Assembly (NCBI RefSeq): GCF_007671685.1
Contig: NZ_VCNL01000003.1
Location: 284,131-348,130 of the forward strand
Origin: Halorubrum salsamenti
GTDB lineage: Archaea; Halobacteriota; Halobacteria; Halobacteriales; Haloferacaceae
DNA: 64,000 nt
Direction: 5' to 3'
Positions 10,144 to 13,789 of this stretch are shown here, in pieces. The position numbers were made by a program, and so were the translations under genes. Numbering within the stretch: position 1 is the stretch's first letter; the number at the start of each line of letters is the position of its first letter. The notes under the pieces are model-generated. The model made no database searches. It saw only the letters and a list, made by a program, of their open reading frames with translations, and had not been told where the DNA came from.

Positions 10144-10941
10144 TCAGGCGTTCTCGACGACCGCGGAGAGGCGTCTGGCCTCGTCGACGAACGACTCGAA
10201 TCGGTCGTCAACCCACTCGATAACCGCTGAGTCTGTCGATTCGAGCACGCATCGAGGGTTGTTTCTTCGGTCGTAGGCCGTCACGCACGCGAGGTCGTCG
10301 CACCGAAATATCCCGTACTCGATCGGTTCGGGGGAGACGTACACCGTCGCGTCGTCGTCGTGGATCGCTCGGTCGGTCGCCGGACCGAACTCCGCGATCG
10401 ACTCCGCGACCACGTCTTGGTCGATGACGAGCTCGACCTCGGCGCCCGCGTCGAGCGCCTCCGCCGCCGCGTCGTTGAACTGCTGGATGACGATGGGCGA
10501 GACCGCGCGGATCTCCGAGCCGCACCCCTCGCGCAGGAGTTCGGTGAGTCGGTCGACGGCGGCGAGGGGGTTCCGGTCGGCCGCGACGGTCAGCTCTCCG
10601 GCGTCGAGCGCCGAGGGCGGGAAGTCGGCGCCGACGCGTTCGAGGTCGGCGGCGAGCCGCCCGTACCGGTCCGCGAGTTCGACCTCGTCGAGCAGCGCCT
10701 CGTACGCGTCGTGGACCCGTTCCCCGGTCGGCGTCACGTGGTAGGCCGCATCGCGCTTGACGACCCAGTCGCGCTCGCTGAATCCGGAGAGAATGCGTTG
10801 GATCGTCGTCCGCGTCGCGTCGACCGCATCCGTGAGGCCCGCCGGGCGGCGCGGCTCATCTCGGAGCGCACGGAGCATCGCGACCCGGACAGGGGACCCG
10901 GCGAGGTACTGTGCGCCGTCGTGTCCGTCGTCGACCGTCAT
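10144..10941 (-). CDS. Winged-helix regulator with FilR1-like C-terminal domain
   Basis: Start chosen at MTVDDGHDGAQYL (265 residues); a GTG 24 bp further up would place the cgattaagcg box too close. The N-terminal wHTH has VRVAMLRALRDEP and TRTTIQRILSGFSERDWV. The C-terminal domain (about 90-260) contains ELVIDQDVVAESIAE and DATVYVSPEPIEYGIF, the layout of haloarchaeal regulators with the FilR1 (PF08350) sensor domain. Ligand unknown. It is monocistronic and convergent with the small acidic gene. Confidence 0.8.
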   Translation of the reverse strand: MTVDDGHDGAQYLAGSPVRVAMLRALRDEPRRPAGLTDAVDATRTTIQRILSGFSERDWVVKRDAAYHVTPTGERVHDAYEALLDEVELADRYGRLAADLERVGADFPPSALDAGELTVAADRNPLAAVDRLTELLREGCGSEIRAVSPIVIQQFNDAAAEALDAGAEVELVIDQDVVAESIAEFGPATDRAIHDDDATVYVSPEPIEYGIFRCDDLACVTAYDRRNNPRCVLESTDSAVIEWVDDRFESFVDEARRLSAVVENA

Positions 10942-11066
10942 CGTGTGATCCTTGTGTACGGACACCGAACGCTTAATCGTACCGCGTTACGCCCCGGCGA
11001 GACGTTCCGAGCGCTTCGGAACGAGCCGCGTCGCCCGGCGCTGCGTCGATCAGTCCCGCGACCCGT

Positions 11067-11315: not shown

Positions 11316-11521
11316 GGTACCAACTCCGCCGGGAGGACTGAAAAAACGGTGGGCCGAGCCCCGAAATTCCCTTGTCGACGCCGATCGCAGATGTACGATC
11401 GAACGGACGGGTCGACATCTCGGAGCGTGTCATTAATTTATTATCTATTTATATTCAAATATCTAAGAATAGTTACCGCAAAACGGTTTTGATGTTAATA
11501 TCACGCGATATTCTGTGTAAT
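11316..11521. other. AT-rich intergenic region upstream of a small membrane peptide gene
   Basis: From about 11,430 the sequence is strongly AT-rich (for example cattaatttattatctattt), unlike the surrounding genome. It carries several possible TATA boxes, including tatttatattc near 11,446 and gttaatat at 11,495-11,500. The latter overlaps an inverted repeat just before the ATG at 11522. No gene is seen here. Confidence 0.6.
11497..11512. promoter_or_regulatory. Inverted repeat at the start of the small peptide gene
   Basis: aatatc-acgc-gatatt is a perfect 6-bp inverted repeat ending 10 bp before the ATG at 11522, where polymerase would start in a leaderless promoter. It could be an operator for a dimeric repressor. 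No regulator is assigned. Confidence 0.4.
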
Positions 11522-11653
11522 ATGCACGAAAGTGTTGCAGACTACGTGGCAGAGCACCCGAAGATGGCCGGCGTCCTGTTCACCGCGCTCCTCCTGCTGA
11601 CGCAGGCGGCGCCCGCATCGGCGAACGCGATGGCGTCAACTCCTGGGCCTTGA
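11522..11653 (+). CDS. 43-residue single-helix membrane peptide (DUF7503-like)
   Basis: MHESVADYVAEHPKMAGVLF followed by a hydrophobic helix (TALLLLTQAAPASANAMA) and a short polar end. The EHPKMAGVLF-helix layout fits small haloarchaeal peptides filed as DUF7503. It could be a membrane-spanning peptide or, given the ASANA-like end, an uncleaved or cleaved signal peptide. Its last 18 bp overlap the end of the facing CHAT gene. The immediate upstream region is AT-rich with an inverted repeat, unlike most genes in the window. Confidence 0.6.
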   Translation: MHESVADYVAEHPKMAGVLFTALLLLTQAAPASANAMASTPGP

Positions 11654-13789
11654 TTTAAGTTCTAGCCGGTCACTCCAATGGAGTTCACCGTGAAAAAACA
11701 CTGGTAGTGTTTCTAAATTAATAAATTTCTTCACAGACTCTCCAGACACATCAGCAATTAAAATTTCCTTTGGCACGTAATAATTTAATTCGGAAGTAGA
11801 GAGATTAGCGAGAGTCATGGTTCCAAGACCATATGGCCCATTCGGAAATGCTTCAATACTAACATTGTATTGTCCTGCGTTCGTCTCTTTTAGTTCTACA
11901 ACAGGCGCGATCCCACTCCGACTCTGACAGATCGTCGTCCCGCCGTCTCCGACGACGATGTACTGGTGGCCGGTGATCAGCTCTCGCTTGGCGACGTGGA
12001 GCGCGGTGCGGAGGTTGAAGCCGCTGTTCATCAGTCGGGCGATGATGCGGCCGAGCTGGGTCGCCGGCGAGTTCGCCACGTCGGAGAGGGTGACGATGCC
12101 GCCGCGGGAGCCGCGGTGGACGAGGGCCTCGCCCTGCTGGTACGACTGGCAGGCGTTGAGCAGGAAGGCGCTCACGCCGACATCGAGGTCCTCGGCCGTG
12201 AGATCGAGGTAGTCGTCGGTGCACTGCATCCCGCGGTCGTCGACGTGGCCGACGTAGTGGAGGAAGTCGACGTCGGACTGGAGGGTCTCGCGCATCTCCT
12301 CGCGGGTGAGGTCGTGGCGCACCTCGATGTCGAACTGGACCATATCGCGGAGCCCGTACAGGTCCGCGACCTCACCCTCTTCGCGCATCTGCTCGTCGTT
12401 ACAGACGACGAGCACGGAGATCCGCGACTGCTCGACCGCGCCGGCCTCCAGACGCCGGTGGTACGCGTCGAGGGTGGCCTTGTTGGCGTCGAGGGGGACG
12501 CCGGCGCCGACCCACGCGTGCTCGACCGTGTCGACGGGCTCGGGCCGCACGAAGTCGGCGTCGGTCGGCACCGCGCCGCGCTCCGCCGAGGCGTCGGTGC
12601 CGCGAGTGGGTTCGGTCCCGGCGGCGCCGCCGCGAACGAACTCGTCGGGACCGAGGGATGCGGCGTCAGTCGGAGTGCGGCCGGCGCCGGCCCGCGGCCC
12701 GCGGAAGAACCCGAGCCCGCCGCCCTCGCCGGCCGTCGCGGGAGTCACCGTCTCCGGCGACCGGACGATCGACAGCTCGCCGGCCACGAACGGGAGCATC
12801 TCCACGTTCTCGGGGTCGGGGCGGACGTCGGTCGTCAGCGTCCACTGGGGGAGCTCCGGCTCGACGCGTTCGAAGGGGACGGCGAGGTACTCGCCGAGTC
12901 GCTCCGCGAGCGGGAGGTCGTACAGCCGGCCCCAGTCGAGGTCGAGGTCGGTGGTCTCGCGCTCGTGGAGATCGACCGGGTAGAACCCCTCCGTGCGCGC
13001 GAGACAGTCGAAGTGGAACGCCTGTCGAAGGGCCTCGGCGGTACGCCGCTCGAAGTCGGGCTCTAAGGGGTGCATCCAGCCGTCGCCCTCGATCCGGGGG
13101 GCGTCGCCGGGGACCACGTCGGCGGCGAGGTAGTACGCCAGCGAGACCACCGGGTAGAGGTAGCGGTACTCCGGGGGGACGACGATCCGGACGCCGGAGT
13201 CGACCGGCTCGACGCGGTCGGGAACGCGGAACTCCTCGCCCGGTTCGATCAGCGGCGGGTGCCCCCGAAGGGTGGGGAACGACCGCTCCGGGCTGGTCGT
13301 CTGGAGCGCGGAGCCGAGCAGCGACACGGCGTCCATCAGCGACTCGGGGTCGGTCGGGGTCTCGATCGTCCCGGCGGGAACCTGGTGGAGCGATCGGAAC
13401 CCGAGCGTGACCTCGGCGGGTGCGTCGAGGTCGATCCGGGTCGTCCGCTCCGTCGTCGACACGGAGAACGGCGACGCGAACGCGAGGTACAGCTTCGTCG
13501 GGGCGGGGTCGATCCCCACGTGGTACGTCCCCGCCGGCATCGCGTAGGAGTCGCCGCGGGTGAGCAGCGTCCCGTCGCCGGAACGGGTTTCCACGACCGC
13601 GACGCGGGGGATCTCGATGGACCCGGTCTCGACGGTCACGCTCGCGTCGACCGGGAAGTAGTGATCGTCCCCGGGACTCGCGGTCGGCTCGACCGGCCGG
13701 TCGGTGTACACCTCGAACTGCGTGTTCTCGATGTGATCGGTGACGGTGAGCCCGGCCGCGCCGGACAGCGGATCGATGTCGATGCTCAT
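11636..13789 (-). CDS. CHAT-domain protein (caspase-like peptidase)
   Basis: Start MSIDIDPLSGAAGL gives 717 residues; the frame above it is a shadow of the next gene. Residues 1-440 are a beta-rich, acidic region of unknown fold with a short disordered linker (about 370-420). A CHAT domain follows: His515 in LHYVGHVDDRG and Cys547 in LLNACQSYQQGEAL form the expected dyad, and GGIVTLSDVANSPAT and YIVVGDGG complete the fold. CHAT proteins are caspase/separase-related cysteine peptidases, often in signalling or self-killing systems. The last roughly 98 residues, encoded by 11,640-11,930, have very different base composition and are probably acquired. No TPR repeats were seen. Confidence 0.8.
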   Translation of the reverse strand: MSIDIDPLSGAAGLTVTDHIENTQFEVYTDRPVEPTASPGDDHYFPVDASVTVETGSIEIPRVAVVETRSGDGTLLTRGDSYAMPAGTYHVGIDPAPTKLYLAFASPFSVSTTERTTRIDLDAPAEVTLGFRSLHQVPAGTIETPTDPESLMDAVSLLGSALQTTSPERSFPTLRGHPPLIEPGEEFRVPDRVEPVDSGVRIVVPPEYRYLYPVVSLAYYLAADVVPGDAPRIEGDGWMHPLEPDFERRTAEALRQAFHFDCLARTEGFYPVDLHERETTDLDLDWGRLYDLPLAERLGEYLAVPFERVEPELPQWTLTTDVRPDPENVEMLPFVAGELSIVRSPETVTPATAGEGGGLGFFRGPRAGAGRTPTDAASLGPDEFVRGGAAGTEPTRGTDASAERGAVPTDADFVRPEPVDTVEHAWVGAGVPLDANKATLDAYHRRLEAGAVEQSRISVLVVCNDEQMREEGEVADLYGLRDMVQFDIEVRHDLTREEMRETLQSDVDFLHYVGHVDDRGMQCTDDYLDLTAEDLDVGVSAFLLNACQSYQQGEALVHRGSRGGIVTLSDVANSPATQLGRIIARLMNSGFNLRTALHVAKRELITGHQYIVVGDGGTTICQSRSGIAPVVELKETNAGQYNVSIEAFPNGPYGLGTMTLANLSTSELNYYVPKEILIADVSGESVKKFINLETLPVFFHGELHWSDRLELKSRPRS

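Follow-up and report, generated by a model that had tools for sequence, protein, structure and literature searches.

CHAT proteases have been described in cell-death systems linked to CRISPR or to gasdermins. The window analysed here, a 64,000-nucleotide stretch of the Halorubrum salsamenti genome (assembly GCF_007671685.1, contig NZ_VCNL01000003.1, positions 284,131 to 348,130 of the forward strand), contains a gene for a 717-residue CHAT/separase-like (caspase-like) putative protease that converges on a gene for a 43-residue peptide of the family DUF7503 (PF24335; MHESVADYVAEHPKMAGVLFTALLLLTQAAPASANAMASTPGP). The two genes are near-obligate convergent neighbours that recur throughout the haloarchaea, and sequence comparison indicates that the constant element of the peptide partner is its C-terminal Gly-Pro (GP), not a membrane helix. 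DUF7503 stands in Pfam as a family without assigned function. The open-licence literature searched, coverage of which is incomplete, contained no paper on DUF7503, or on the DUF7504 family found at some related loci, and none on a haloarchaeal CHAT system; the pair is apparently undescribed. The pairing with CHAT, the constancy of the GP tail and the replacement of DUF7503 by other partners were established here.

Relation to described systems

The TPR-CHAT protease of Craspase (Csx29, with Csx30) has the CHAT fold and the His/Cys dyad in common with the haloarchaeal protein, and its partner is likewise linked to it genetically. Unlike Csx29, the haloarchaeal protein lacks tetratricopeptide repeats (TPR), carries another N-terminal domain and is partnered by a 43-residue peptide, and no gRAMP or CRISPR context was seen around the pair. 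SAVED-CHAT (PDB 8tl0) resembles the protease part by Foldseek (E 1.3e-5) and weakly by profile (E 0.21), but no SAVED domain is recognised in the haloarchaeal CHAT, whose N-terminal domain (residues 1-347) gave no Foldseek match in PDB at E<1e-3 (best E 3.2e-3). Separase and gingipain R, both of which cut after Arg, are the best fold matches of the protease domain; cutting after Arg, a predicted specificity in the haloarchaeal protein, would be compatible with the F-x-R motifs of its linker, whereas the accessory domains of the two enzymes are unlike its own. In contrast to gasdermin-type CHAT systems, the partner is a single-helix peptide of 43 residues and not a gasdermin-fold pore protein.

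A further likeness is to the RRNPP systems (Phr-Rap, PapR-PlcR, AimP-AimR), in which a small pro-peptide with a signal-like leader and a short variable C-terminal segment is encoded beside its putative receptor. Here, however, the putative receptor is a CHAT protease without TPR and the genes are convergent; the signal-like pattern, a permissive one, is present in DUF7503 and absent from the soluble and array partners described below.

Pairing across haloarchaea

A convergent CHAT homologue was found at 90 of 90 sites chosen by DUF7503 alone (31 best-scoring and 59 more over about 45 genera). The distance was mostly no more than about 270 bp, with a single site at 998 bp; the choice favoured better-scoring matches, so that very divergent DUF7503 members are under-represented. 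Among 292 haloarchaeal genomes, DUF7503 occurs in 250 and CHAT homologues in 271: both are present in 250, CHAT only in 21, DUF7503 only in 0 and neither in 21 (Fisher p about 1e-20, uncorrected for relatedness of the genomes). Viewed from the protease, DUF7503 lies beside 146 of 200 non-redundant CHATs with a 3' flank. The original prediction had offered the pairing as an inference; it is strongly supported by these counts, since CHAT genes usually lie near such a peptide and do so beyond chance. Chance adjacency is ruled out by the 90 convergent sites, the Fisher test and the GP-frame control given below. Four genomes from a different class of the phylum contain CHAT relatives that have no GP peptide beside them, and the pairing therefore looks specific to Halobacteria.

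The Gly-Pro end and the variable tail

The peptide of the window matches DUF7503 with 69.4 bits against a curated cut-off of 27 (E=1.9e-19) and consists of a near-constant front, a single hydrophobic helix, a variable stretch and a fixed GP end, the last being present in 137 of 142 unique DUF7503 peptides. Within -30 to 100 bp of the CHAT gene, a convergent GP-ending frame occurs at 153/200 CHATs and at 19/54 CHATs without DUF7503, against 3/429 control open reading frames (ORFs), a rough control made of long ORFs of the same loci. Some CHATs without DUF7503 face other helix peptides, ending TTTTPGP, SSIADVSPGP and SSTNSGP. In two other lineages the partners are short and soluble, ending DGSSSPYTGP and RVSTYGGP. 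The partner in genus g13 is a soluble array without a helix, comprising 4-13 copies of TADGN[GS]GGISGPY and ending GISGP. Its repeat (TADGNGGGISGPY) resembles the tails of sister lineages and probably derives from such a tail, because the CHAT tree groups the g13 CHAT with others whose peptides terminate in GNHVGISGP, GNNSVIYGP and GNSTYIYGP. Eleven of the 21 genomes with CHAT only have an alternative GP peptide, that of G118, which is soluble, being a weak case. The earlier suggestion that the peptide acts as a membrane effector is weakened by the g13 repeats and the two soluble-partner lineages, all of which end in GP.

Across 41 Halorubrum peptides, nonsynonymous divergence (pN) is 0.045 in leader codons 2-35, 0.45 in codons 36-40 and 0.02 in the terminal PGP, with synonymous divergence (pS) saturated in both codons 36-40 and PGP. 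The 4-6 residues before GP differ between species and between paralogous pairs of one genome; in genome G274 the tails of the paralogous pairs are all different. Such variability fits pair specificity. Tails are not always fast-changing, since many in one clade of several genera read SQ[VIM]GP. Expansion of the CHAT family within single genomes is seen in G124 (L191-L199) and G274 (L241-L251), where each partnered copy has its own divergent tail.

The CHAT protein

Re-reading the ORF and matching its fold bear out the predicted CHAT protein with His515 (LHYVGHVDDRG) and Cys547 (LLNACQSYQQ). The Pfam CHAT family (PF12770) matches residues 473-609 weakly (E=1.1e-3, below the curated cut-off); the assignment is nevertheless sound because the AlphaFold model of the whole protein (predicted local distance difference test, pLDDT, 89.7; predicted template modelling score 0.90) matches separase, gingipain RgpB, SAVED-CHAT and TPR-CHAT by Foldseek. 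The first 440 or so residues had been described as beta-rich and devoid of TPR. The second part stands, no TPR being seen by Pfam scan, predicted structure or Foldseek; the first holds for residues 1-135 only, as residues 140-347 are predicted to be mixed alpha/beta and residues 348-422 to form a disordered linker. No signal or membrane segment is visible in the protein.

Alignment of homologues shows His515 and Cys547 each kept in 103/107, in agreement with the proposed dyad. Both residues are absent from the other 4 of these diverse CHATs, all four without a detected partner (Fisher p=0.0018). One of these four is a second CHAT homologue of the source genome (L003, L210; G000:C1:749392-751386), in which neither catalytic residue survives and beside which no peptide partner was detected. 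In the interdomain linkers, the motif F-x-R occurs in 84 copies across homologues against 11 expected (maximum 22 in 1000 shuffles), often in the form [DE]F[TFVL]R[SGD], and it is found in 61/83 partnered versus 8/23 partnerless CHATs. Because this enrichment lies in the linker of a predicted Arg-type clan CD protease, it suggests that the motifs are candidate self-cleavage sites.

Features and neighbourhood of the locus

The peptide gene faces the CHAT gene as first described, and the shared ends lie within a local patch of low GC (Table 1). Peptide codons 8-21 are near-frozen at synonymous sites, whereas 34-codon windows of CHAT in Halorubrum have pS 0.22-0.83, implying constraint at the nucleotide level. 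These codons also oppose the codon background across genera (Pro13 CCA 41/85 versus 13%, Leu19 CTG 77/85 versus 27%). No fold of the peptide gene was better than those of shuffled sequences, and no Rfam match was found.

Table 1. Coordinates in the window of the CHAT gene, the peptide gene and their parts
Feature	Position	Strand	Remarks
CHAT protease gene, 717 residues	11636..13789	-	ORF with ATG start; Pfam, predicted structure, Foldseek
N-terminal domain, residues 1-347	12749..13789	-	predicted beta-sandwich and alpha/beta; pLDDT 96.0; Arg169 invariant
Disordered interdomain linker, residues 348-422	12524..12748	-	pLDDT <50 for 361-399
Linker motif Phe361-Phe362-Arg363 (F-x-R)	12701..12709	-	candidate self-cleavage site
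Second linker motif Phe384-Val385-Arg386 (F-x-R)	12632..12640	-	
CHAT protease domain, residues 423-625	11915..12523	-	Pfam, predicted structure, Foldseek
Catalytic His515 codon	12245..12247	-	
Catalytic Cys547 codon	12149..12151	-	
Small C-terminal beta domain, residues 628-717	11639..11908	-	predicted structure
Peptide gene, 43 residues, DUF7503	11522..11653	+	Pfam; family in 250/292 Halobacteria genomes
Peptide codons 8-21	11543..11584	+	extreme synonymous conservation; pS 0.067 in Halorubrum
His12-Pro13-Lys14 box	11555..11563	+	just before hydrophobic segment; [HN]P[RK] in 132/142 GP-ending peptides
C-terminal tail NAMASTPGP	11624..11650	+	after AxA-like site; middle variable; final Gly-Pro (11645-11650) near-invariant
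Tail-to-tail coding overlap, 18 bp	11636..11653	both	stops of both ORFs included
AT-rich promoter region of peptide gene	11440..11521	+	blocks kept across Halorubrum: TTCAAATATC, ACCGCARAACA, TATTTAT/TTAATAT

The pair locus is syntenic within Halorubrum, where a gene for an HVO_A0261/FilR1-type regulator (10144-10965, minus strand) adjoins it in conserved position. In 42 of 123 cases outside Halorubrum, spread over 20 genera (e.g. L063, L068, L101, L104, L113), the gene immediately upstream of CHAT, in the same orientation, encodes DUF7504; as it does not occur there at the Halorubrum sites, it is optional and was rejected as a conserved third gene. At several loci (L123, L135, L140, L141, L153) two same-strand CHAT genes stand at one peptide, the second without a detected peptide of its own. 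CHAT copies occur on plasmids in 25 records, mostly annotated as hypothetical. Searches of viral contigs and phage records gave no match, and carriage as mobile or viral cargo was rejected, as was membership of a known defence family, for which PADLOC gave only a marginal match (E=0.047).

Proposed mechanism and alternatives

The reading favoured here, held tentatively and at somewhat below even confidence, makes CHAT a zymogen of Arg type, resembling separase and gingipain, over which the peptide partner would exert control by means of its GP tail. A sensor-like N-terminal domain is joined to the protease through the disordered F-x-R linker; CHAT would bind the tail of its partner, with the residues before GP setting pair specificity, and this binding would gate activity, either holding the protease off or switching it on with self-cleavage after the linker F-x-R. 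The GP tail stands on variable carriers, namely a signal-sequence-like helix, other helices or soluble repeats. With the signal-sequence-like carrier the peptide would lie at the membrane or span it, so that what the module reports would be export, the state of the envelope or neighbouring cells.

Several observations weigh against control through the tail. The main difficulty is one of place: the tail of a signal-like peptide would end up outside, apart from a CHAT in the cytosol, while array partners appear cytosolic, and because neither a signal nor a membrane segment is visible in CHAT, the meeting place of the two is unexplained. The pN/pS of the tail is 0.57 at saturated synonymous divergence, a value that would also suit a spacer under loose constraint ahead of GP. 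About 20 dyad-bearing CHATs have no detected partner, although several are second tandem copies and some peptides were missed (L198). Arg169, considered as a tail-binding residue, is unsupported in that role, as it is kept in partnerless CHATs also.

A secreted peptide signal with the logic of Phr-Rap or AimP-AimR is an unlikely alternative. In such a scheme a Sec leader would be cut at the AxA-like site, and a GP-ended peptide of 8-10 residues would be re-imported and read by the CHAT N-terminal domain, its variable residues conferring species or pair specificity. A hydrophobic core with a small-x-Ala site 5-12 residues before the end is present in 147/147 peptides by a permissive pattern, and the near-constant leader, variable tail and fixed end, the wholly different tails of paralogous pairs and the repeat arrays, which look like multi-copy precursors, all agree with a signal; the array proteins and two other lineages nevertheless lack an export signal, and the surroundings of the pair showed no conserved gene for a transporter or receptor. 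The other earlier suggestion, a cleavage target, is rather improbable: the peptide would be a CHAT substrate, cut either in the tail or at the conserved Pro-Arg/Lys ahead of the helix to free a membrane-active fragment, as with gasdermins. The [HN]P[RK] box lies at the cytosolic edge of the helix, similar boxes occur in unrelated partners, and an Arg preference would agree with the nearest folds, but soluble and repeat partners keep only the GP end and have neither box nor helix.

Those soluble partners also speak against a toxin-antitoxin-like arrangement, in which a small membrane toxin would be restrained or cleared by CHAT, or by antisense transcription over the convergent ends. The small hydrophobic peptide, the convergent overlap and the plasmid copies would suit it; near-universality in the class, synteny within Halorubrum, the loss of catalytic residues alongside the peptide and the lack of virus or phage copies in the viral contigs and phage records make it very unlikely. 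The least probable account considered is that the peptide gene works chiefly at the nucleic-acid level, with convergent transcription or an embedded element regulating CHAT expression. It would explain why the synonymous sites of codons 8-21 are near-frozen against codon usage, yet the GP end is conserved as protein while its own synonymous sites are saturated, replaced carriers keep GP, and neither an RNA fold nor an Rfam match supports it.

Significance

About 86% of the haloarchaea sampled carry the module and its strict peptide partner, and Haloferax volcanii, which carries DUF7503, offers a tractable target. From a fixed Gly-Pro preceded by variable residues follow direct predictions on recognition and specificity. 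A wider proposal, considered doubtful at present, is an archaeal recognition system in which every cell would make a short, species- and pair-specific GP-ended peptide, read by a dedicated caspase-like protease receptor. It would serve kin sensing or act as a self-guard on regulated proteolysis, and a single genome could hold as many as about a dozen differently tailed pairs. The pair could be an archaeal peptide-controlled protease switch, and it could make archaeal peptide signalling or regulated proteolysis testable.
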